The notes beneath the pieces are model-generated. The model ran no database searches and was not told the origin of the DNA. It saw nothing but the letters and a program-made list of their open reading frames with translations. From a virus, in IMG/VR virus record IMGVR_UViG_3300027743_000040, positions 1 to 46,110 of that record: a stretch of DNA of 46,110 nt; one strand, 5' to 3'. How positions within the stretch are numbered: the first letter of the stretch is position 1; every line of letters starts with the position of its first letter. Both the position numbers and the translations under genes were made by a program. This document shows, piece after piece, positions 1 to 46,110 of this stretch.

Positions 1-132
1 TGCCTTACAGCGGCTCGCCGGCGATGATGGACCCCAGCAACCCGATGCGCTCCGTGCTGCAAAACGCGGTGCTTGCCGAGCCTCCCCCCAAGCCCGCGAT
101 CGAGAAGCTGCGGCCCGGCAGCGAACTGCACA
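1..132. repeat. Left copy of the 132-base end repeat
   Basis: Matches 45979-46110 base for base except position 6 (T here, G at 45984), which would change Asp to Tyr in the portal. The repeat lies inside the portal coding sequence and keeps its frame, so it most simply marks where a circular or circularly permuted genome map was cut, not a genetic element. A true terminal repeat is possible but would split a structural gene. Confidence 0.95.
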
Positions 133-1946
133 CGGAGGTGCTGGACAAACTCAACGCCATGTTCAAGTTCGGCAAGGACGAGATGGCGAAGCACTACGAC
201 CGCTGGAACTTCGGGGAGCAGAAGATCCAGGCCTATACCTCGATCGAAGATTACACCCGGCTCATGGACACCCTCAATGAAACGAATGCTCGTCCGCCCG
301 AACCCATCCAGGTTATCGTCCCCTATTCCTATGCCACTCTCCATGCTGCCGCAACTTTTGTCGCGACGGTCCTCCTTGGGCAGAAGCCGGTCTTTCCCCT
401 CGTTCCAACACGGGGCACTGAAACTGACCGAGCTCGGTATATGGAGACTGCCATACAGTCCAACCTCGACGCCAGTCGCGGCTACGAGCAGCTGTGGCAG
501 CAGATCTGGGACGGGCTCATTTATGGGTTTGGTGTCAATCGCTGCCAGTGGGAAGAACGTCAGGGCCCGGCGATACGTTGGGTAGGTGGTGAGCGGACGA
601 TGACCACTCAGACCACGTTTGCTGGGAACGTGCTGTCAAGCATTGATCCCTATGCGTATGTGCCTGATCCGCGCGTCCCGATCCACGAGTGCAATGTGCG
701 CGGCGACTTCATCTTCACTGAAATGCAACAGTCGGAGACCGTGCTCAAGGATATGGAGAAGGCCGGCAGCCTGCAGTGGGTCAAGGAGGCGCTGGAGAAG
801 AACAAGGCCAACCGGCGCAGCGGCTCCGCAGTGCAAGACAATCGGCGCAGGGTCAAGATCGGTATTCGCGGCGAGAACCTCATCACGCCCAACAGCGTTA
901 TTGGGTTCCATCGGATCTTCGAGGGGACGGTAAGGCTGATCCCCAAGGACTGGAAGCTGGGAACGTCGGAGACCAGCGAACTGTGGAAGTTCACCTGGTT
1001 CAAGGAGCAGATCGTGCAGGCTGAACCGCTGGGCATGATCCACGGCCAGCATCCGTATGTCGCGAGCGAACCCACCAGCTTTGGCCATGACTTTATGTCT
1101 GTGGCGATGAGCGATATGATCGGGCCCTTCCAAGACATCATGAGCTGGCTCATTTCGTCGAGGATGGAAAACGTCCGGACTGCGATCAACAACCAGTTCG
1201 TGGCCGACCCTTCCCGCGTGGAGGTGAACGACATCCGGACCTCCGCGATCGGCCGCATCATTCGGCTCAAGCAGCAGGCGATGGGCCTCCCCGTCCGCGA
1301 AGCGATCCAGCAGCTCCTCGTCCAGGATGTGACCACGGGCCACCTGAACGACATCCAAACAATGCGGGTTCTCGCTGACACCATCACAGGTGTCAACGAC
1401 AATATGAGGGGGATCCAAAACCCCGGAGGGCGGAAGTCCGCCACCGAGGCGAGGATGTCCATGCAAGCCGGAGCGTCCCGTCTTTCACAGCTTGCTGTTC
1501 GCATGAGCACTCAAGCCATGCTCCCCCTCGCCAACCAAATGATCTTCAATATTCAGCAGTTCATGCCGGAAGACATCTGGGTGGAAACGACCGGCGATGA
1601 CAAGCAGCCCACCTCGCATCAGGTCACGCCCGAGATGCTGGTCGGGAGTTTCAACTACCAGGTCAGTGATGGATCACTTCCTTATGACAAAATGGCCCTC
1701 GTGGAAAGCTGGAAGGAAATCCTCTTCGGGGTGGCGCAAGACCCTGAGCTGCGCCAGACCTACGACATGGCTGCGATCTTTGATTACGTAGCTACGCTGT
1801 CGGGAGCAAAGAACATCGACGCCTTTAAGAAGCCGCCTCCCCCGCCAGGGGCTGGACTTCCCATGCAAGCCGGTGCCGCGCCAAATCCCGGCGGCGCAGC
1901 CGATATGATGGCCTTAGGGCCTGCCATGCCAGCCGGGCCAATGTAG
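3..1946 (+). CDS. Portal protein (main part; 5' end lies at 45852)
   Basis: Head-tail portal that forms the dodecameric DNA channel and docks the terminase. The frame is open to the left edge and continues the gene starting at 45852. Joined across the ends, the protein is 690 residues, a normal portal size. The first in-window ATG (base 24) is internal. The body has an alpha/beta core (FGKDEMAKHYDRWN, IVPYSYATLHAAATF) and a long helical segment around GVNDNMRGIQNPGGRKSATE. The C-terminus is Pro/Ala/Met/Gly-rich and probably disordered. It follows the large terminase directly and precedes the scaffold and coat genes, the standard order. Family assignment rests on position, size and these segments, not on a diagnostic motif. 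Confidence 0.85.
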   Translation, partial: PYSGSPAMMDPSNPMRSVLQNAVLAEPPPKPAIEKLRPGSELHTEVLDKLNAMFKFGKDEMAKHYDRWNFGEQKIQAYTSIEDYTRLMDTLNETNARPPEPIQVIVPYSYATLHAAATFVATVLLGQKPVFPLVPTRGTETDRARYMETAIQSNLDASRGYEQLWQQIWDGLIYGFGVNRCQWEERQGPAIRWVGGERTMTTQTTFAGNVLSSIDPYAYVPDPRVPIHECNVRGDFIFTEMQQSETVLKDMEKAGSLQWVKEALEKNKANRRSGSAVQDNRRRVKIGIRGENLITPNSVIGFHRIFEGTVRLIPKDWKLGTSETSELWKFTWFKEQIVQAEPLGMIHGQHPYVASEPTSFGHDFMSVAMSDMIGPFQDIMSWLISSRMENVRTAINNQFVADPSRVEVNDIRTSAIGRIIRLKQQAMGLPVREAIQQLLVQDVTTGHLNDIQTMRVLADTITGVNDNMRGIQNPGGRKSATEARMSMQAGASRLSQLAVRMSTQAMLPLANQMIFNIQQFMPEDIWVETTGDDKQPTSHQVTPEMLVGSFNYQVSDGSLPYDKMALVESWKEILFGVAQDPELRQTYDMAAIFDYVATLSGAKNIDAFKKPPPPPGAGLPMQAGAAPNPGGAADMMALGPAMPAGPM

Positions 1947-19652: not shown

Positions 19653-20722
19653 TCGTCCACCTTAGCGTCCTTGGCGCTCTTCCGCATAAACTTCCATGCA
19701 GGCTCGTTCAAATATAAGGAGGCAAGGGTTCCGAGATCCTTGAGCAGCTCAGGTTGTAGAGAGTGTTGTAGTATGCTCGTGTCATCACCGTAGTTGCGAA
19801 GCCTGATGGGAATTGGAGCCGCCAGCAGATACTGCGTGTCATATAGCCCATTCTGGAGAACTTTCGGATTGGGTAGCTGAGCGAACTTGTCAATCCAGCG
19901 CCATGCCATAACCTCATCTGCAACAGACCAATAGTTTGGATCAGCGGTAGCATATCGGTCCCAGATGGGAATGCAGATCCCCAGGTTAGGTGTCGAGAAC
20001 GAACAAGTGGTAATTTGAGCGATAGAGGGGGCAGTTTCCAGGTCAACGCCAACGGCCACACTCGGCGTGGACAGGAGACAGTGATAGACGTAGGAGATCT
20101 CGTTGAACGAAGGGTTGACATAGAAGACTCGCTTGGCGGGCGGAGGGAGAGATCCGGTGAGGTAGTCGCGGACCTTGGTCAGGTCGGCCCAAGCGATCGG
20201 GTAGTTGGGCCATTGGTAGAGGATGCTGGCGGGGTGGAACGTGCAGATGGCGTCGCCGCCGAACGGGCTCGGGAAGAACGTCCCACGGAATGAGGTGATG
20301 GCGGACTCCCCGGTGAGGAACCACAGCGCCGTGGCTCCCAATCCCACTATGAGATCAGGATTAAGAGCCTCGAGACGGGATCGGCAAAGCGCCACTTGGT
20401 CACGATATTGCGGTAGGAGGTAACGCTTCTGTAGCGGGGCTCCGAGGTTTCGCCAGTCCAACCCCATTCTCTTGGCCTCGGTCTTGTTGACGGTCCAAGC
20501 GCGGAGGTCATTGTCAGGCGGACGGTCCGTGAAGACATTGAGTATATACCAATGGTCAGCATCGAGGTTGGCGTCCGGCATGAGCTTGTTGCGAAGTAGT
20601 CGGCCGCTGGAGCCGACGAATGGAGCGTTTGCGACTTCTTCTTCAGCGCCTGGCGCTTCACCCAGCAGAACTAGGGTCTTGGGGCTGGAGATTAAGGGAG
20701 GGCTGAACATCTTGTCCCACAT
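19649..20722 (-). CDS. Uracil-DNA glycosylase fused to the first half of a 3'-5' exonuclease
   Basis: A 357-residue two-domain protein. Residues about 14-190 are a family 4/5-like uracil-DNA glycosylase: LLGEAPGAEEEV (19-30, motif 1), PFVGSSGRLLRN and the closing TFHPASIL (161-168). Residues about 198-350 are the front of a family A proofreading domain: exo I VGVDLETAPS (D227, E229), exo II KVLQNGLYDTQYLL (N291, D295) and GDDTSILQHSL. Exo III is at the start of the next gene. The four Fe-S cysteines of family 4 are not in place. It starts behind a GAGGT site and overlaps the methyltransferase gene by 65 bases. Confidence 0.85.
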   Translation of the reverse strand: MWDKMFSPPLISSPKTLVLLGEAPGAEEEVANAPFVGSSGRLLRNKLMPDANLDADHWYILNVFTDRPPDNDLRAWTVNKTEAKRMGLDWRNLGAPLQKRYLLPQYRDQVALCRSRLEALNPDLIVGLGATALWFLTGESAITSFRGTFFPSPFGGDAICTFHPASILYQWPNYPIAWADLTKVRDYLTGSLPPPAKRVFYVNPSFNEISYVYHCLLSTPSVAVGVDLETAPSIAQITTCSFSTPNLGICIPIWDRYATADPNYWSVADEVMAWRWIDKFAQLPNPKVLQNGLYDTQYLLAAPIPIRLRNYGDDTSILQHSLQPELLKDLGTLASLYLNEPAWKFMRKSAKDAKVDE

Positions 20723-22178
20723 TGGTGACCTCGGGGTGAAAGCGCTGGAGAAGGAACCGAGCTACCTCGGCGTTTGCGGGATCGAGTTCAATGCCAAGGA
20801 TACGCGCCGCGCCGAGGTTTCCCGCGGCAGCAAGCGCTGTGCCAGAGCCGCACGTAGGATCGAGAACTGCCGTGTGCTCATCCACGATGAGACGCAGGAA
20901 GTGCGATAGCATCGCGAGGGGCTTTTGGTTGAGGTGGAGCTTTTCAGCATCCAGAGCGCACTCAGTATAGTCCCGATCGAGTTTGGAGATTTTGCGATCG
21001 CCTCGAGAGAACAGGAGTGCAGTCTCGTAACAGTGACGAGGCCTACGTTTGACATCGGACGCGATACCTGAATAGCCCTTGCCCCAGATGAGGGGGTAGG
21101 GTTGGACTGCCACCCATCCGGCGGCGGAGAAGCGTTCGATAAGCCAGGTGTAGTAAGGCATATCGAACCAGATCATGCAGTGTGCGGCCTGGAACGTGAA
21201 CGAGTCCTGGAGGTTGAGGAAGCCATCGACGAGGCTGAAGAAGATGTCAGGATCATCGGCGTAGATGGGGGAGGTGTGGACGGCCGTTTTGCGGGTCCGC
21301 GCTCCGGAGTAGTTCTTGCCGTATGGAGGGTCGAAATGGATGACATCGAACTTGGGGCCTGTGTAGGACTCGGCCCAGTTGAGAAAGTCGTCACAGAGGA
21401 TGATGTCGTTTACTACATCCTGCTTGCGTTGGACTTCTAGCGCGGCTGCGGCGATCTTCCCAGCCTGGATGTCGCTTAGGCTGCGATCGACGTCCTCGAG
21501 AGTTTCCTCCATGGCTGTCCCCAAGTTGATCGCGGACAGGAAAGCTGCGGTTCTCTCCTCTTTAGTCGCGTTAGCAGACACGAGTGGTGGGAGGATAAGA
21601 GAAGCTCCCACAGCAACGTCCAGCCCACGTGAATGTGCTGCAATTCGAGCACGTTGGGCTTTTGCCGTGATGTAGTTAAAGGCTCCGTTGAAAGTCGGGC
21701 AGGTATTGACATTTTCGTCCTTCATTTCTTCGTAGACGGCGAGGACCTTCCCGATCCAGCTATCCGACCGGCCAAGATCCGTGGCCGTGCCCATGTTGGT
21801 CCAGCCGGGGAACGCTAGCAGCCTCATGCCGTGATATTTGCCGACAGCGTGGACTTCTTCTTGCCAAGTCAGCTGCTTGCGGACAAGGTTTTCAGCCAAC
21901 TCGATGAGAAAGGCTTTGATGGGGTTGAGGTGCTCGAAGATCGTGGCCCGGATGGTCAGGAGTTCAAGCTGCATATGCGCGCGAAGGCGGCGCTCACCTG
22001 CGACTAGGGTGCCGTCCTCGCGGACCACGATCGGCTGGATCAGCCCGTGCATCTGGATCGAGGATATAAGGGCGTCGTCAGGGGCCGCCTGTTGGCGCTG
22101 GCGCTCGGCCGGGATGATGATGAGGTCGACGGGGAAGTGGACGACTGTCTCGTCGGCCAAGACGTTATCAGGTAGCAT
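20658..22178 (-). CDS. ParB-domain / N4- or N6-DNA methyltransferase fusion
   Basis: A 506-residue protein. Residues about 12-150 are a ParB/Srx-like nuclease-superfamily domain (VDLIIIPAERQRQQ, LVAGERRLRAHMQL) with a following helix-turn-helix region (TATDLGRSDSWIGKVLAVYE). Residues about 255-480 are an amino-methyltransferase in beta-class order: FDPPYGKN (282-289, DPPY catalytic) first and VLDPTCGSGTALAAAGN (SAM-binding) near 438-454. Such fusions are common in phages and usually modify adenine or cytosine amino groups, protecting the genome or regulating it. No partner restriction gene or parS role is implied. Start is ATG behind GGAAGGG. Confidence 0.85.
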   Translation of the reverse strand: MLPDNVLADETVVHFPVDLIIIPAERQRQQAAPDDALISSIQMHGLIQPIVVREDGTLVAGERRLRAHMQLELLTIRATIFEHLNPIKAFLIELAENLVRKQLTWQEEVHAVGKYHGMRLLAFPGWTNMGTATDLGRSDSWIGKVLAVYEEMKDENVNTCPTFNGAFNYITAKAQRARIAAHSRGLDVAVGASLILPPLVSANATKEERTAAFLSAINLGTAMEETLEDVDRSLSDIQAGKIAAAALEVQRKQDVVNDIILCDDFLNWAESYTGPKFDVIHFDPPYGKNYSGARTRKTAVHTSPIYADDPDIFFSLVDGFLNLQDSFTFQAAHCMIWFDMPYYTWLIERFSAAGWVAVQPYPLIWGKGYSGIASDVKRRPRHCYETALLFSRGDRKISKLDRDYTECALDAEKLHLNQKPLAMLSHFLRLIVDEHTAVLDPTCGSGTALAAAGNLGAARILGIELDPANAEVARFLLQRFHPEVTNVGQDVQPSLNLQPQDPSSAG

Positions 22179-23665: not shown

Positions 23666-23976
23666 GCATCTGTCCCGTCTTTGTTGACAGTGTTGTCGTC
23701 CGCGTAGGTGGCTCGACGGGCCTCGGGGATCCTCCAGGTCCCATCGTTAACCTTTCGCCATTCCTCCATTTGGTCCGCAGACTCTTCCGCGGCCGAGCAC
23801 ATCCGCAGGTCGTCCTCATCGCGGGCACCGAGGATGACCTCGCGGCGCCGGACATCAGCCCATAGGCGGAGCAGGGCTGGGGCCTGCGGGTCACGACCGA
23901 GCAGGGTGAAGATCGGCTCGTCATCGAGGGCCCGAGCGTAGCAATCGAAGGTGTCAGGGTTGGTTTTAGTTCCCAT
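23662..23976 (-). CDS. Unknown early protein
   Basis: A 104-residue acidic protein (LRLWADVRRREVILGARDED, MEEWRKVNDGTWRIPEARRA). It overlaps the preceding gene by 11 bases; its last codons carry the -35 box of the ATPase promoter. No family recognised. Confidence 0.7.
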   Translation of the reverse strand: MGTKTNPDTFDCYARALDDEPIFTLLGRDPQAPALLRLWADVRRREVILGARDEDDLRMCSAAEESADQMEEWRKVNDGTWRIPEARRATYADDNTVNKDGTDA

Positions 23977-24259
23977 CGGTGATGTCCTTGTTGAGCTGAA
24001 TGGCGCGGGTGACTCCAGGCTCTTTCATCCGTTCAGGATGATCGCGCTTGAAGGCCCGAAACTCGGCGACGCGATCCTGCACAGCCTGATCGTGGTGGTC
24101 ATCTAGCACAAGGCTGTGATAGTATTGAAGCACCAGCAGGGCGTAGTGATCACGAGCGCGGAAGATGATAACGGGCTCGTCGTCGGGGATAATCTCACCG
24201 CTGACGCGGTTGACGAAGTGTCCATCCTCGAATTTGAACTTACGGTCTTCAGCCATCAT
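23966..24259 (-). CDS. Unknown early protein
   Basis: A 97-residue protein starting MMAEDRKFKFEDGHF. The ATG at 24259 forms an ATGA overlap with the nuclease stop, so this start is preferred to an upstream one at 24280; the second ATG at 24256 is an alternative. DEPVIIFRARDHYALLVLQYYHSL forms a strand and helix; the C-terminal half is charged. No family recognised. Confidence 0.7.
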   Translation of the reverse strand: MMAEDRKFKFEDGHFVNRVSGEIIPDDEPVIIFRARDHYALLVLQYYHSLVLDDHHDQAVQDRVAEFRAFKRDHPERMKEPGVTRAIQLNKDITDGN

Positions 24260-25269
24260 CTGTTCTCCAGCGGGTTCCACCCCGGCTTGGCTGTGTAGTG
24301 CATGGCGAGGTGGCGATCGCGGAACTCGGGCGGCTGCCGGCAGATGCCTTTGAACTCGCAGAAGTAGCAGCTGGCTGTGTTCATCGGGTAGTAGCCCCGC
24401 AGGGCGTAGTTAACCGCGTGCTCGGTCGCCATGCTGACCAGCTGGAAGTATTCCTCGATCTGGCCGGGAGTGCGCTTGGTTTCCACACGCTGGAAGCGGG
24501 CCGACCCCACCAGCAGCCCAATGCCATCAATCCAGGTGCTCTTGATCGGCTTAGGGAAGATGATCTGGCCGGCAGCTGTGTAGCCCGTCATCTGGTGGGA
24601 TAGATCGAACATTTCAAACATCTGACGGCTGAGAGCCTTGGACGTCTTGTAGTCCACGTTGTGAAGCGAGTCATTGAACTCAACAACACGGTCGAGGTGC
24701 CCGCAAAGTAATACCTGCGCTTGACCAGCCAGCTCAATTGGGAGGGCAACTCGGAACGAGAGTTCCACAGCTGGCGAACCGTCAGAGAGGATATATGTCT
24801 TGAAAGCGTCGGATGCGTAGTTCTCGAGATACCATACCACGGCTCGGAAGAGGTAGTAGCGGGTTCGGATCTTGGTGTTGCGGAGCGTGATCCCGTCATC
24901 GTCCTCAGAAGTCTTGTCAGCCAGGTCATCGACTTCCTCGTCAATTGGGAGGGTGGCGGTCATGGGGTGAGCCAGCAGCATCTTCACCGCCTCGAAGACG
25001 CCTTCATCATGGTCATCGCCAGATGCTCGAGACAGATGATAGTATTCTGCGCCCTTGTGGAAGAGGATGCCGAAGACGAGAGCGATGGCGAAGGATGTGC
25101 TGTTGCTGACTTGGCCCTGCACAATGCTGTATTGGTAGCGTCGCGGGCAGGACAAGATGTTGGTAAGGCTGACGCTGTCCCACGCATACTGCACGGGGAC
25201 GCCGTTGACGAGGGCGAAGGGGCTGTCAGGGCCCTCAGCCGAAGCGGCGAGAACATGGTCCATGCTCAT
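24256..25269 (-). CDS. Cas4/AddB-like PD-(D/E)XK exonuclease with Fe-S ligands
   Basis: A 337-residue nuclease. GILFHKGAEYYHL (68-80) has the conserved His. CGHLDRVVEFND (189-200, D193) and NVDYKTSK (204-211, D206 and K208) are the PD-(D/E)XK core. Four cysteines, C41 (SCPRRYQYS) and C301, C304, C310 (CYFCEFKGIC), are spaced as in the 4Fe-4S clusters of Cas4 and AddB. It probably resects DNA ends for the Sak4-like ATPase. It is ATGA-coupled to the genes on both sides. Confidence 0.85.
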   Translation of the reverse strand: MSMDHVLAASAEGPDSPFALVNGVPVQYAWDSVSLTNILSCPRRYQYSIVQGQVSNSTSFAIALVFGILFHKGAEYYHLSRASGDDHDEGVFEAVKMLLAHPMTATLPIDEEVDDLADKTSEDDDGITLRNTKIRTRYYLFRAVVWYLENYASDAFKTYILSDGSPAVELSFRVALPIELAGQAQVLLCGHLDRVVEFNDSLHNVDYKTSKALSRQMFEMFDLSHQMTGYTAAGQIIFPKPIKSTWIDGIGLLVGSARFQRVETKRTPGQIEEYFQLVSMATEHAVNYALRGYYPMNTASCYFCEFKGICRQPPEFRDRHLAMHYTAKPGWNPLENR

Positions 25270-27462: not shown

Positions 27463-27491
27463 AATATGGGCGCGATGCAATACAAGGTCAA
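27463..27491 (-). promoter_or_regulatory. Possible sigma70 promoter
   Basis: Minus strand TTGACC (27486-27491), 17-base spacer and CATATT (27463-27468). The -10 is a modest match; a shift of one or two bases gives ATATTG or TATTGC. The position between two genes supports it. Confidence 0.4.
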
Positions 27492-27886
27492 GCGTTTTCT
27501 TCATTCTCCTTGTTGTCTATGTCGATTTCCGAAGGTTCAGACGGTGCCTTGCGGATAGCTGGTGCACCGATATACCGGATCTCAGTAGGGAGTTTGAGTA
27601 GCGCAGCAACACTGATCTCAGCTGACATTCCGGGGGAGAGCCCAAGATCGGCGTAGACAACAAGTGCCTCAGCACGCGCCAACCAAGCAGTTCCCATCGC
27701 GATTGCCAATTCGCGGCTGTCGGGCAGATTGTCGTCCAGAAAACGTGGGTAGAGGAGGTGCGGGATGAATGGCGCCTCGCCCTGTAGGATCGAATGTTCG
27801 GCTGCTCGTTTGGCATAGTTGATGTGCCTGCGTAAGGTTTGGGCATCAGGTGCGCTGAAGGGCGATGCGAGGAAAACGGGCTTCAT
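27488..27886 (-). CDS. Nucleoside 2-deoxyribosyltransferase-like protein (DUF7768/DUF4406 type)
   Basis: A 132-residue protein. VFLASPFSAPD at the N-terminus, GEAPFIPHLLYPRFLDDN in the middle, then AMGTAWLARAEALVVYADLG and SPGMSAEISVA give the conserved order of DUF7768/DUF4406, a Rossmann-like family related to deoxyribosyltransferases. It may remodel nucleotides in infected cells. Start at 27886 follows GGAGG. The last codons overlap a possible promoter -35 box. Confidence 0.75.
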   Translation of the reverse strand: MKPVFLASPFSAPDAQTLRRHINYAKRAAEHSILQGEAPFIPHLLYPRFLDDNLPDSRELAIAMGTAWLARAEALVVYADLGLSPGMSAEISVAALLKLPTEIRYIGAPAIRKAPSEPSEIDIDNKENEENA

Positions 27887-27887
27887 G

Positions 27888-28235
27888 TTAGCCTCCGAGA
27901 TTGAGCCCGGCGAGGGCTGCGAGAAGTTTGGCAGTATTCGCAGATTTATCCGCTGATACCGGGGCCATTGGGCGAGGGACGACCAGTGCACGGGGGGTAG
28001 GTCCTCCGAAGCGCTGGATGACTGCGGCGGTTTTAAGGCGGGCATCAGCTTCGCACTCCCCGATGATGGAGAACAGGGTGGCGCGGTCCAGTCCGCTGAG
28101 GCCAAGGTTCACGGCGGCTGCGGTGATGGGCACCCAGTAGCGGTTGTTGGGCTGGTCGATTTGGTGCAGGGCGCGAGGGTTTAATAAGGCCTCGGCCGCG
28201 TAGATGAGTTCGTAAGAGGTAGGGATTGATGTCAT
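27888..28235 (-). CDS. Unknown early protein
   Basis: A 115-residue helical protein (YELIYAAEALLNPRALHQID; GLDRATLFSIIGECEADARL) ending in a Gly/Ala/Leu-rich tail. GAGG precedes the start. It lies one base from the next gene. No family recognised. Confidence 0.65.
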   Translation of the reverse strand: MTSIPTSYELIYAAEALLNPRALHQIDQPNNRYWVPITAAAVNLGLSGLDRATLFSIIGECEADARLKTAAVIQRFGGPTPRALVVPRPMAPVSADKSANTAKLLAALAGLNLGG

Positions 28236-28254
28236 GGGAACCTCGGCGAGAGGA

Positions 28255-28284
28255 TGACGGCGGAGGTGTTAGCCCCCGCCGTCA
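28255..28284 (-). terminator. Terminator-like hairpin after the PEP-CTERM gene
   Basis: TGACGGCGG (28255-28263) pairs with 28276-28284 (9 pairs, 12-base loop). It directly follows the PEP-CTERM stop codon on the minus strand; the U-tract is weak. Confidence 0.55.
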
Positions 28285-28292
28285 GTATTGAG

Positions 28293-28988
28293 TTAGGCTA
28301 CCCGCAACCTGCGGTTGCCGTCACCGACGGACCTGCGGCGCAGACCCATGCCCAGAAGGCCGAAGCCGAGCAAGAGGCTCAGCCACGTGCCGGGCTCGGG
28401 CACCGTGCCGAACGGGGTGGGAGTCCCGCCGTCCGGTCCCCTGACATCACCCAACCGGAGCTGGCGAAGATCCTGCCAGCCGCTCGTGACCGGGTTCGCG
28501 ATGAACTCGATCGAGATGAACCGCTCGCCGGCTGTGCCGAAGATGCCCTGGAAGTTCTGCCCGTTGGCAGCGATGTCGACTGCAGTGCTAGCGGTTCCGC
28601 CCCCTGCCAAGAGATAGGTCAAGATGACCTGCGTGGCTTCGTTGAGCGCGTTGCCGCCGATCGGGAACAGGTTCCATGTGGCCGCACCGAAGGTGTTGCC
28701 GTTGGCAAGGCTGAACTTCAAGCTGTTCAGCAACCCGTCCTCGGCCGAGACGTCGGCCTGGCCCCCGGCATCGCCGGAGAGGTTGTCGCCGGTCGGGCTG
28801 GTGAACAACACGCCTGCGTGGGTGTTGTTGGTGAGGCCGATGATGACCGGACCGATCTCCTTGACGATGAGGACGTTCTCCTCCGTCGTTGCGCAGCCGG
28901 GGGTCTCGCAGATCTCGACCGCGGCGAAGGCGGGGGAGGCAAAGATGGTGCACGCAAGTGCTGCCCCCAATAGTGCTTTTCTCAGCAT
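28293..28988 (-). CDS. PEP-CTERM sorted exported protein
   Basis: A 231-residue secreted protein. Residues 1-22 are a signal peptide (MLRKALLGAALACTIFASPA, with Ala-x-Ala cleavage near 20-22). The mature part is beta-rich (VIIGLTNNTHAGVLF, FISIEFIANPVTSGW). Residues 196-219 are a PEP-CTERM signal: VPEPGTW, a hydrophobic stretch (LSLLLGFGLLGMGL), then RRR. In bacteria this tail is cut by an exosortase and the protein is placed in the outer envelope or exopolysaccharide matrix. Twelve residues after RRR are slightly longer than usual. I see no exosortase in the phage, so the host enzyme would be needed. Confidence 0.85.
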   Translation of the reverse strand: MLRKALLGAALACTIFASPAFAAVEICETPGCATTEENVLIVKEIGPVIIGLTNNTHAGVLFTSPTGDNLSGDAGGQADVSAEDGLLNSLKFSLANGNTFGAATWNLFPIGGNALNEATQVILTYLLAGGGTASTAVDIAANGQNFQGIFGTAGERFISIEFIANPVTSGWQDLRQLRLGDVRGPDGGTPTPFGTVPEPGTWLSLLLGFGLLGMGLRRRSVGDGNRRLRVA

Positions 28989-29059
28989 GGTGTATTTCCC
29001 TTTGCAAAGGAGTTAGTAGGCGTGACGAGGCGTAGTGTTAGCGTTCCATACGGGGCCTC

Positions 29060-29503
29060 CTATTGTTTGTTGATCAGGTCGTCAATGAAGCGAGCAATGT
29101 CCTGCTTATTGACCTTCAGGTCTTCGGGCGTGATGACCGGGGTTGGCTGGGAGAATTGCTCGAGGTGATGGATCTCTGCTGTGTCGGGGACTCGGAGGGT
29201 GGGTAGATCCATGCCCTCGGGGAGTCGGTTGTAGATGCAGAGGAAGCGGCCGAGGGGCGGCTGGTTAGGCTCGCAATGGGTGAAGGTCCACTGGCCGAAG
29301 TTGACGAGGTGATATTCGGGAGGGATCGTGAAGATCGCTCCGGAGTCTTTTCGGCGGCGCAGGCGAAGAAGGCGCATCTTGAGGCTTTTGGCGGCGACCT
29401 CAGTGATGTTCTCGACATAGATATAGCCAGCATGGACTGTTTTACCTAGGATGTCGAGGAGGAACGGCTGTGGCCAGTCGTAGTGAGGTTCGTGGGCGGG
29501 CAT
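29060..29503 (-). CDS. Unknown early protein
   Basis: A 147-residue protein with a basic stretch (AAKSLKMRLLRLRRRKDSG) inside a beta-rich fold (AIFTIPPEYHLVNFGQWTFT; PPLGRFLCIYNRLP). It lies just upstream of the PEP-CTERM gene; the 71-base gap between them has the palindrome CCTTTGCAAAGG. No family recognised. Confidence 0.65.
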   Translation of the reverse strand: MPAHEPHYDWPQPFLLDILGKTVHAGYIYVENITEVAAKSLKMRLLRLRRRKDSGAIFTIPPEYHLVNFGQWTFTHCEPNQPPLGRFLCIYNRLPEGMDLPTLRVPDTAEIHHLEQFSQPTPVITPEDLKVNKQDIARFIDDLINKQ

Positions 29504-30271: not shown

Positions 30272-30823
30272 TTACTTCTTGGGCTGCGGCGTATCGGGCA
30301 GCTCCTGACCCGGCCGCGGCTTGCCGCCGGGGACAGTGTTGTCGATCTCCGGCTGCTCGCCCGGCAGGCCCTGATCGGGGCGCCCGGTGACTTCCTGCCC
30401 GTAGTCGGGATCGACCGGCCGCTCGGCACCCGGCAGGGTATTGTCGATCTCGCCGGACTGGCCGGGAAGGGACTGGTCAGGCGTGTCGGGGGTATCGGGC
30501 AGCGTGTTGTCGATCGTCGCCGGCGGCTCCGGGAGTTCCTGATCGGGAGTGTCCGGATCGGTGGGCAGCTCCTGATCGGGCAGTTCCTCGGCCTCGCCGT
30601 TGTCGATCGCGTCGAGCAGCTTCTGGCGCAGCTCTTCCTTCTCTTCGTCGGTGAGTTCGAAGTCCTCGCCTTCCTCGTCGGTGCACTCGGTGATGTTGAC
30701 CGAGTTGTCGACATTGGTGGTCTCGCTGAGATCGTTGACCTCGAACGTGATGTCCACATCGTAGATGTAGTCCTCCCCGTCCTCGTTGCGCTCGACCGGC
30801 AGAGTGGCCTTGTAACGCGTCAT
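30272..30823 (-). CDS. Very acidic protein with Pro/Asp/Glu-rich repeats
   Basis: A 183-residue protein starting MTRYKATLPVERNEDGEDY behind AAGGAAAA. Residues 1-85 form a possible globular part; from about 85 the sequence repeats imperfect units such as PDQELP and IDNTLP (DTPDQSLPGQSGEIDNTLPG). The net charge is strongly negative, and charge and length recall DNA-mimic anti-defence proteins, but the repeats look disordered and the role is unknown. Followed by a good terminator. It is ATGA-coupled to the RMF-like gene. Confidence 0.7.
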   Translation of the reverse strand: MTRYKATLPVERNEDGEDYIYDVDITFEVNDLSETTNVDNSVNITECTDEEGEDFELTDEEKEELRQKLLDAIDNGEAEELPDQELPTDPDTPDQELPEPPATIDNTLPDTPDTPDQSLPGQSGEIDNTLPGAERPVDPDYGQEVTGRPDQGLPGEQPEIDNTVPGGKPRPGQELPDTPQPKK

Positions 30824-31014
30824 GAGTGTTTTTCCTTCACTAGAGCCCGGCAAGATTTCTCCCAGCTGACACGGGCTTTATGCCAGCCGAAAGCCCACGC
30901 TCGCCTGTCGGCCCCTCGTGGGTAGGGATTTGAGGCGGAGTAAACTCCGCAATGGAAGGCATGATAGCCTTGCTGGAAAGCAGTGCTACCATAAAAGGTC
31001 GATGGGTGTGACAC
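30820..31014 (-). CDS. Ribosome modulation factor (Rmf/CrpP)-like protein
   Basis: A 64-residue protein. FQQGYHAFHCG, then SASNPYPRGADRRAWAFGWH and a closing A match the GYxA-xxG, NPYP and RxxWxxGWxxA pattern of the Rmf/CrpP fold. Bacterial Rmf dimerises 70S ribosomes; phage members are unstudied. GTG at 31014 lies three bases after the upstream stop. Its TGA overlaps the next ATG. Confidence 0.75.
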   Translation of the reverse strand: MSHPSTFYGSTAFQQGYHAFHCGVYSASNPYPRGADRRAWAFGWHKARVSWEKSCRALVKEKHS

Positions 31015-39710: not shown

Positions 39711-40025
39711 ATGCTTAATCTTGCTCCAGGTGAGACATTTCGCCACCTGCTCACGTTTTTTGAGGTGGGGAGGGATGGGCCACGCCTCGATCTCACTGAC
39801 ATCGTCGTCGAGGCCATTAATCTCAACGACGCGCCGTGGGTCATCCAGGTCCTCGCCACCGACCCCATCAACGGGCAGTGTCAGATCTACATACCTGACG
39901 CCGATACCCAACTCGCCGAGCCTGGGGTTGAGTATGCCTTCCAGCTGCGCATGACCTTTCCCAGCGGGGATAAGAGGTTTATACCTCCGGTCGTCATTGC
40001 GCTCGGCCCGGAGTATGTCGGATGA
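39711..40025 (+). CDS. Small beta-rich protein at the head of the late arm
   Basis: A 104-residue protein starting [20 protein letters not shown]; the ATG at 39711 is chosen because GGAGG and the promoter lie just upstream. Strands such as [20 protein letters not shown] and [12 protein letters not shown] suggest an immunoglobulin-like or baseplate-type module. It is ATGA-coupled to the fibre gene, so it probably helps attach or assemble the fibre. Confidence 0.7.
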
Positions 40026-42640
40026 AGGTCGAGTTTGAAAACCTCTCGCCCGTGGTGCAGATCGAGGCGCCGGAACAGCACCTCATCATCACCAACATGG
40101 TGCCGGCAGGAGAAGGAGCATCGGGTGTCCCTGGACCGCAAGGCGAGCAAGGCCCTCAAGGCGTCCCGGGCCCGCTCGGTCCTCAAGGGGAAGTTGGTCC
40201 GGCAGGACCTGCGGGCGAGCAAGGCATACCTGGAGTCAGTGACATCCCAGGTCCGGAAGGTCCTCCAGGCCCACAGGGGGAGCAAGGCCCTCAAGGTATT
40301 CAGGGAACCCAAGGCATCCAAGGCGTAAAGGGTGATAAGGGTGATCAGGGCGATCCCGGCATTCAGGGCAACCAAGGCATACAGGGCAATCAAGGTGTGC
40401 AGGGTCCGGTCGGGCCGGAGGGTCCTGTAGGCCCCAAGGGCGACAAGGGTGATCAAGGCATCCAGGGGCCGATTGGGCCAGCCGGCAGCCTGAGTGCTCC
40501 CATTGCGCCCATGACCTACCTGAGCAATATTACCGCGGGTGCAGCGGTGCCTGTCGCCAACCCTATTAACTTTGGCATCCTCGACGCCGCCAATCTCTGG
40601 ACCGGGACCAACAGCTTCCTGAACTCCGTCCAGATCTACGGCGCCACCCCCAGCCTCGTCCTGCGCAACGCCGCCAACAGCGCAACCGTTGGAATGCTGC
40701 AAGCCACCGGCGCAACCATGCAGCTGGTCAATAACGTCGCCGATCAGGGGATGGGGTTCCAGGTCCTCGGCACCGGCAAGTTCAGCTTCAACAAGACTGT
40801 GAACGTTACAGGCGATGTGATCGCCGAGGGCGTGCTGCGGACCCGTGCCACTCCCAACGCCATTGTCGAGTGGTATAACGGTGCAGGCACTACCCGCCTC
40901 GGCTACGCTTACCACAGCGGTGCTGGGTTCAATCTCGCAAATGAGATCGACGGCAACAACATCTACGCCACCAAGGTCGGCGCTCACGTATTCGTGGACA
41001 GCATTACCGAGCGATTTCGGATCGCGCCGGGGCTTTCCTCTACCCTAGGCGACCTCTCCGTCGGCATCGCCACCGCCCTCCAGCCCGCCGCCAACCGTGG
41101 CAACCTCAGCCTCAACGGCGCCACCGACGCGGTGATTTCCTTCGGTAACGCGGGCGCCACCGCAGGCTACATCCACGCCGCCGCCGACTCACTGAACTTC
41201 AACGCGCAGGGTCCGCGCTTCATGACCTTCAACCTCGGCGGTGAGCGGATGAGGATCACCGCCGCTGGCAATGTCGGCATTGGCACGAATGCTCCCGGGC
41301 AGAAATTAACTGTTGTTAGCGATGATGCTGTATACCAAGCGATATTTAGAGGGGCTACCTGTGGCTTTGGTATCTATTCTGACGCGCCCAATGGTGTAGT
41401 TCTCAACGCCATGAACGCGGCTATGGCTACTTACAAGCCGCTTATAGTTGCTGCTGAAACGATCAAAATGAACTCGAGCAGCGTTGCCAACGCGCTGTAT
41501 ATTTCCAATGTTGGTCATGTAGGCATCGGCACTGCCACCCCGCAGCGCGACACTGCAACGGTTGGCGGAAATAGTGCCGTCTTTCAGGTCATTGGCGAAC
41601 TCTGCCTCCCTTATGGCGTGACGGGTTATGAGCCCTTCCGCATCGGCATCTTCCCCAATCCCAACTACATCCAGGGCACGCCATCCGTCGGCGCTGCGAT
41701 TGGTATGACCATCAGCGGCTGGAACACCGGCCAGATTGGCGGCGGAACCGTCTTTCAGTCTGGTGGCGACGCCGGCGCTGGTGGGTTTGAACTCCAGGCG
41801 CGTTCGGGAGGCAGCGGCATTGTCAACCGCCTGGCGCAGTTCTCCCCAGGCTACGACATCTTCTACATAGCTAACGCCGAGAAGATGCGGCTCGATGGTA
41901 ACGGCTACCTGGCTCTTGGCACAGCCGGTCCAAGCTATCTAATGGATGTGAGGCACGTAACTGATCCCGCAATCCGAGTCTATAACAGCACCACCGGCAC
42001 CAGCTTAATCTCGATGGCAGCCGCTGGTAGCGGTCAGGTGGGCACCACTTCTGCTCACCCCTTCTATTTTCTTTATGGAGGCTCTGCTGTATGTGTTTTA
42101 CTGGGTGACGGCTTCTACCCGAACACTAATGGCACCGCGAACCTCGGCGGATCGGGCAACAAGTGGGGGACTGTTTACGCAGCCACCGGCACGATCAACA
42201 CCTCCGATGCGCGGCTGAAAACCCCGCTAGCGGCGCTTACTCCAGCCGAGCTTGCTGCGGCCAAAACCATCGCGCAGGGCGTGGGATCCTATCGCTGGCT
42301 CGATACGGAAAAGATGGGAGACAGGCTGCACATCGGCGTGACCGCGCAGGACGTGATCGCGGCGATGGAAGCGCAAGGGCTGGATGCCCTCTCCTACGGC
42401 CTCGTCCGCTACGACGAGTGGGACGCCATCGAGGGTCAAGAGGGGCAGGAAGAGGTTATGGCTGTCCTTGATGATGTCGAGGGTCTGCGCGAGGTGGTTG
42501 ACGAGGCTGTGCCTTTTGCAGCCAGCATCCAAGGCCGCGAAGCGGGCAACGAGTATAGCGTTGCCTACGCCGAGCTATCTATGTTCATCGCCGCTGCACA
42601 AGAGCAGAGGCTTGCTGCGCTGGAGGCGCTACTGCCATGA
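40022..42640 (+). CDS. Collagen-like tail fibre with S74 intramolecular chaperone
   Basis: An 872-residue receptor-binding fibre. Residues about 35-155 are Gly-X-Y repeats, interrupted once (GVSDIPG). The middle holds strand repeats of the GNVGIGT type ([23 protein letters not shown]). The C-terminal domain is a peptidase S74 chaperone: TSDARLKTP with S728 and K733 as the autocleavage pair, followed by GSYRWLD and [11 protein letters not shown]. The chaperone trimerises the fibre, then cleaves itself off. Parts around 41300-41530 and 42040-42110 are visibly more AT-rich than the rest, which suggests domain exchange. Confidence 0.9.
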
Positions 42641-45851: not shown

Positions 45852-46110
45852 ATGGCGACCTCACCGTTCGATGTGTTAGGCCCAGCTGCCGGCGCACCCA
45901 TGCCCCCTGCGTTGGGGATGGCGCCGCCAGCCGATATGTTCTCCGGCGGCGATCCCGGTGCGCTTGCACCCCCTGCGATGCCTGACAGCGGCTCGCCGGC
46001 GATGATGGACCCCAGCAACCCGATGCGCTCCGTGCTGCAAAACGCGGTGCTTGCCGAGCCTCCCCCCAAGCCCGCGATCGAGAAGCTGCGGCCCGGCAGC
46101 GAACTGCACA
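45852..46110 (+). CDS. Portal protein, 5' part (continues at the left edge)
   Basis: First 86 codons of the portal. Start behind AGAGG, one base after TerL. The N-terminal extension is Pro/Ala/Met/Gly-rich (PMPPALGMAPPADMFSGGDP) and probably disordered. It continues in frame at base 133 of the window, giving 690 residues in all. Confidence 0.85.
   Translation, partial: MATSPFDVLGPAAGAPMPPALGMAPPADMFSGGDPGALAPPAMPDSGSPAMMDPSNPMRSVLQNAVLAEPPPKPAIEKLRPGSELH
45979..46110. repeat. Right copy of the 132-base end repeat
   Basis: Repeats bases 1-132 with one mismatch (45984). Marks the closing point of the map; one copy should be removed when the circle is drawn, giving 45978 bases. Confidence 0.95.

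Follow-up and report, generated by a model that had tools for sequence, protein, structure and literature searches.

A predicted PEP-CTERM protein of Sphingomonadales type encoded by a phage without an exosortase gene

In some bacteria the PEP-CTERM label directs proteins to the slimy coat; the proteins that carry it are many and diverse, with functions that are mostly unassigned. An open reading frame at 28293-28988 of the virus record IMGVR_UViG_3300027743_000040 (46,110 nucleotides, analysed over its whole length and here called the window), which a first-pass annotation had read as a phage-encoded PEP-CTERM protein, raises the question of whether a phage indeed carries such a gene, where it came from and what the phage might gain from it. 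The gene, here P0001, and its two targeting signals are located as follows:

28293..28988, minus strand: PEP-CTERM protein gene P0001, 231 aa (PF07589/TIGR02595 matches and homologues)
28923..28988, minus strand: signal peptide, residues 1-22, MLRKALLGAALACTIFASPAFA (by eye and hydropathy)
28332..28403, minus strand: sorting tail of VPEPGTW, hydrophobic helix and RRR, residues 196-219, VPEPGTWLSLLLGFGLLGMGLRRR (tail models)

Start codon (28988) and stop codon (28293) place P0001 on the minus strand, which the first-pass annotation had not given. Since the plus strand is equally open, with an antisense frame of 239 aa that is without support, openness proves nothing and homology decides for the minus-strand gene; full-length homologues at E 9e-54 (phage) and 3e-49 (chromosomes) exclude chance. 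The predicted protein runs from a signal peptide, ending in A-x-A as judged by eye, through a body to the VPEPGTW, hydrophobic and RRR elements of the tail. By hydropathy, signal and tail rank among its most hydrophobic stretches; a third such stretch (residues 39-53) includes charged residues, and no further membrane helix was seen between signal and tail by eye and hydropathy. The model searches confirmed the proposed class: PF07589 (Pfam) matched the tail with E 4e-7 and 30.3 bits (cut-off 20.7), and TIGR02595 (NCBIfam), the model originally suggested as a check, scored 21.8 bits (cut-off 16). The PEPxxWA-CTERM model NF035944 gave 33.9 bits for the whole protein in hmmscan, against a cut-off of 35, and 38.1 bits for the stretch alone in the genome search, the motif of P0001 reading PEPGTWL rather than the WA of this subtype. 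While signal peptide and tail were thus found as described earlier, the claimed beta-rich body is only weakly suggested by an AlphaFold model from two input sequences (ten strands and a C-terminal helix, mean pLDDT 38). Profile search against solved structures returned noise only, Pfam search found no enzymatic domain, and PHROGs contained no family for P0001. Its GC3 of 0.85 is high, yet the phage's own genes reach such values too, and its codon use is average and like theirs, so that its base composition is not unlike that of its neighbours.

A search for host homologues, also suggested at the outset, pointed to the origin of the gene. Homologues at E <= 1e-8 were present in 17 of 398 Sphingomonadales genomes, and those of three genomes (G594, G443 and G499) matched P0001 at 49% in local alignment over almost its full length (best E 3e-49). 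The family has conserved body motifs, ENVL, DGLLN and RQ-RLGG or RQ-RL-GG (alignments A1 and A2), and its closest members, P0001 included, have a common C-x4-C pair after the signal peptide. Unlike P0001, these relatives are chromosomal, and two of them have an exosortase gene or fragment within 5-10 kb. The G594 homologue stands among glycosyltransferases, ~9.6 kb from exosortase; the one in G443 has an exosortase fragment at ~5.4 kb, with EpsI-like and sugar-transferase genes nearby (neighbour names read from sequence in both). In G499 homologue and exosortase are on separate contigs. Exosortase was found in 16 of 17 tested genomes with PEP-CTERM homologues or tails, which is expected and no independent evidence, because the genomes were picked for just these features. 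In the family of a Phenylobacterium MAG (299 genomes) the best E values were 3e-11 (that MAG) and 4e-11 (another), and both genome samples, Sphingomonadales and Caulobacteraceae, were partial. A Caulobacteraceae host, considered because of the terminase of Caulobacter phage Kuura and the Phenylobacterium homologue, was dropped when 4e-11 was set against 49% and 3e-49 in Sphingomonadales. The initial guess of a sphingomonad agrees with these comparisons, the nearest chromosomal homologues being those of Sphingomonadales, in genomes with exosortase. A search of the 398 Sphingomonadales genomes for prophage relatives of the window's terminase, run without a positive control, returned none.

The setting of P0001 in the window is described by the following features:

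7..132, plus strand: 126-bp terminal overlap, with an identical copy at 45985-46110
24..1946, plus strand: portal protein, phage hallmark
44160..45851, plus strand: large terminase, phage hallmark
18141..19652, minus strand: DNA polymerase family A, in the same minus-strand block as the insert
28236..29059, minus strand: single-gene insert of 824 bp, comprising 71 bp leader, ORF and 57 bp trailer (gene order compared with G001, G002, G007 and G008)
29060..29503, minus strand: conserved phage gene of 147 aa on the upstream side of the insert, no assigned function
27888..28235, minus strand: phage gene of 115 aa on the downstream side of the insert, conserved position, no assigned function
27488..27964, minus strand: DUF7768/nucleoside deoxyribosyltransferase-like gene, next in the conserved order
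28255..28284, minus strand: hairpin 3' of the P0001 stop, 12-bp stem without U tract (dG -28.6, z -3.8)

The terminal overlap, together with terminase and portal genes that are neighbours in related phages and lie here at opposite ends, indicates that the window holds the whole genome of a phage. It further encodes an exonuclease, a UvrD helicase, a UDG and a collagen/S74 tail fibre, and no exosortase was found in it. Five related phages of 39-47 kb have most genes in common with it, the large genes mostly at 40-65%. Tyrosine integrase (PF00589) was absent from the window and from these relatives, which makes the earlier description of the phage as virulent plausible. Several further genes of the window stand out by themselves. 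A fusion of a ParB N-terminal domain with an N6/N4 DNA methylase domain (20658-22178, minus strand) is conserved among the related phages. The tail fibre (40022-42640, plus strand) combines collagen repeats with a Peptidase_S74 chaperone and has no match in the related phages compared. An acidic, proline-rich protein of 193 aa with DQELP-like repeats (30272-30853, minus strand) is absent from the related phages and partially matched in two viral contigs (L223 and L207).

Comparison of gene order showed that P0001 is an extra gene, as expected of a moron, between genes that are adjacent in related phages. The two flanking genes overlap in G002 and G007 and are close together in G001, in the same order; the sequence of G008 begins only within the region, and in G003 different small ORFs occupy it. 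For the downstream gene (27888-28235), which BLAST did not match, equivalence rests on place and a shared C-terminal motif. Neither P0001 nor its tail is encoded by any of the relatives. The clean insertion of a single gene between adjacent phage genes argues for phage cargo rather than a join to a host contig, and the claim that the gene is phage-encoded was upheld by the gene order shared with related phages on either flank and by the terminal overlap. By its sequence P0001 is a full-length member of a Sphingomonadales chromosomal PEP-CTERM family within a complete phage genome, and we regard its status as phage cargo of Sphingomonadales type as very probable. Around the gene no consensus promoter or U-tract terminator was found, and the hairpin is terminator-like at best. 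A sigma-54 site, as reported upstream of many proteobacterial PEP-CTERM genes (PMC1569441), was not seen by eye upstream of P0001.

A second phage carries the same protein. The IMG/VR motif scan combined with local comparison brought up a 51-kb record (IMGVR_UViG_3300018067_000007; L148, here G769), whose homologue of P0001 also has 231 aa (44% identity, E 9e-54). As in the window, it is located in the phage replication region, with SSB and Erf-like genes near; in contrast to P0001, it reads VPEAS instead of VPEPG and is followed by a second PEP-CTERM gene and then by a hairpin with a U tract. G769 carries genes of its own for terminase, portal, major head protein and tail fibre and is by gene content an unrelated siphophage: among all genes of the window that were compared, only P0001 and a 104-aa accessory gene (72%) were common to both, besides two low-complexity matches. 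The accessory gene (23966-24280, minus strand) has no Pfam family, and its protein is 47% identical to those encoded in cyanophage records of 65 kb, one being annotated as a KTSC domain. G769 also contains three tandem near-copies of one gene (L266:2118-4102, plus strand; RLDW...ARFACKRWHYT). In a tree, P0001 and the G769 copy grouped as a single clade (94/94) next to three chromosomal genes, and their dN/dS was ~0.48 (dS 1.12, dN 0.53, close to saturation). This kinship is compatible with a transfer between phages as well as with capture from the same unsampled hosts. The scan with close-family alignment revealed no third carrier of the P0001 family.

The motif scan of IMG/VR detected at least 85 ORFs with PEP-CTERM-like tails. 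Among 50 viral records tested, drawn from the scans, 48 reached the NF035944 cut-off, and the listed ORFs of at least 120 aa fell into 44 sequence clusters, P0001 and the G769 copy included. Not all listed ORFs are proven phage genes, as host flanks occur; contig L002, a tail match of the first viral scan, was rejected as a phage-borne case since its gene is a host gene that adjoins an integrase at the border to host DNA. In other records phage hallmark genes adjoin or lie near a PEP-CTERM gene whose body is of another type than that of P0001: portal, terminase and head genes in L132, terminase and portal in L112, primase and polymerase in L098, portal, protease and head genes in L216, tail sheath in L214, and baseplate and endolysin in L231, with integrases in some of these six records. 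L231, where the baseplate genes are of P2 type, is also, with L233, L239 and L243, among proviruses of isolate genomes that contain a PEP-CTERM gene. Where phage-borne pairs were comparable, dN/dS ranged from 0.09 to 0.46. Tandem pairs of PEP-CTERM genes belonging to one body family are found in several viral contigs (L111, L137 and L173), with dN/dS of 0.1-0.3 between contigs. Exosortase was found in none of 47 viral records. Among INPHARED phages, tblastn of P0001, the G769 copy and two other phage PEP-CTERM proteins gave no match; a 31-aa tail query was likewise empty there and is uninformative, the plasmid comparison having been empty as well. In the literature covered, which took in part of the subscription journals, no description of phage-borne PEP-CTERM proteins was found among papers that mention PEP-CTERM or exosortase together with phages, viruses, prophages or auxiliary metabolic genes. 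Similar genes in unrelated phages suggest that phages borrow the surface-sorting machinery of their hosts. As a general strategy, phages of exosortase-bearing bacteria may have captured PEP-CTERM genes many times over, each time independently, and may employ the host's exosortase to place their own proteins into the exopolysaccharide coat; we offer this tentatively, and jointly with its supposed purpose, which would be to keep rivals out or to control the matrix.

How P0001 might act is suggested by published work on its class. In the processing model, PEP-CTERM proteins are exported by their signal peptide, retained by the C-terminal helix and processed by EpsH/exosortase at the PEP motif, with a link to exopolysaccharide (PMC1569441). 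Overexpression of PepA shifted exopolysaccharide from soluble to bound, and among several PEP-CTERM genes tried the floc effect was seen with PepA only (PMC9850573). The position of P0001 in the minus-strand block with replication genes makes early or middle expression likely. Taken together, processing model, PepA effect and block position lead us to think that the phage alters the polysaccharide surface by way of the host exosortase. One host-type gene would have been inserted between two genes of the replication/early block and be expressed from an early phage transcript during infection; its product would be exported via Sec, the C-terminal helix would anchor it in the inner membrane, and the exosortase of the host, the phage having none, would cleave it at the PEP motif. 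The released body would then enter the exopolysaccharide layer and shift the amount of cell-bound polymer, and the likeliest benefit would be that fewer rival phages get to the surface of the infected cell. To this reading as a whole, a moron processed by host exosortase that alters the exopolysaccharide surface and likely limits superinfection, we assign a probability of roughly 0.45. Processing by the host exosortase is probable in our estimation, action at the polysaccharide surface is favoured by a little over even odds, and superinfection exclusion as the benefit is a more doubtful proposal. Against this reading count the close phage relatives, which do without the gene, the missing consensus promoter and U-tract terminator, the restriction of the floc effect to PepA, and the empty terminase search of the 398 Sphingomonadales genomes, which had no positive control.

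Sequence by itself does not separate three other explanations of what P0001 does. It may be a neutral passenger, a host gene acquired by illegitimate recombination that brings the phage no benefit; phages do pick up stray host genes, and P0001 occurs in only one phage of its group. However, its signal, body and tail are intact and its codon use resembles that of the phage's own genes, the unrelated G769 retains a relative that groups with it, and other phage-borne PEP-CTERM genes are under purifying selection, which together make a mere passenger unlikely. Alternatively, P0001 could loosen or tighten the matrix for the benefit of progeny, setting virions free from a biofilm or retaining them in it. 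PEP-CTERM proteins do affect bound versus soluble exopolysaccharide (PMC9850573), and the chromosomal homologues sit in polysaccharide loci, but the gene lies in the replication/early block and not among late or lysis genes, and its product contains no recognized enzymatic domain; we consider such remodelling unlikely as well, and slightly more so than a passenger.

An abundant P0001 might also serve as a decoy that occupies the host exosortase, whereby receptors of other phages would not be displayed. That phages carry substrates and not the enzyme (exosortase in 0 of 47 records) and that unrelated bodies with the same tail type were captured recurrently would suit such a tail-only role, but the body is conserved between P0001 and the G769 copy too (46% identity), which a pure decoy would not need, and this explanation appears improbable. 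That the locus is an artefact, a host gene misassembled onto a phage contig or a prophage border, is scarcely credible: viral contig L002 looks exactly so, its gene adjoining an integrase where host DNA starts, whereas both flanks of P0001 are collinear with related phages, the contig closes on itself and a PF00589 integrase is missing. A phage with the substrate and without the enzyme is a small, tractable case for the role of exosortase-sorted proteins under phage attack; exosortase substrates are an addition to the surface proteins known to travel with phages, and a PEP-CTERM tail could be a host-prediction clue for uncultured phages.

In terms of known systems, the sequence comparisons identify P0001 as a known protein class on an unusual carrier, with evidence for recurrence. 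It resembles substrates of the PEP-CTERM/exosortase (EpsH) system (TIGR02595/PF07589; PMC1569441) in its signal peptide, its body without known domains and its PEP motif, helix and basic cluster, and has chromosomal relatives in exosortase-bearing genomes; it differs in that its carrier is a phage without exosortase, which must use that of the host. With phage morons and superinfection-exclusion proteins (P22 SieA, PMC10883804; reviewed in PMC11436027) it shares the arrangement in which one accessory gene, coding for a protein that is exported or sits in the membrane, is inserted between conserved genes, whereas the known exclusion morons are mainly expressed from prophages; the likeness is one of gene arrangement, and exclusion by P0001 is putative. 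PepA of Aquincola tertiaricarbonis (PMC9850573), which when overproduced binds exopolysaccharide to cells, is likewise a PEP-CTERM protein but is chromosomal, and is likened to P0001 by class alone.
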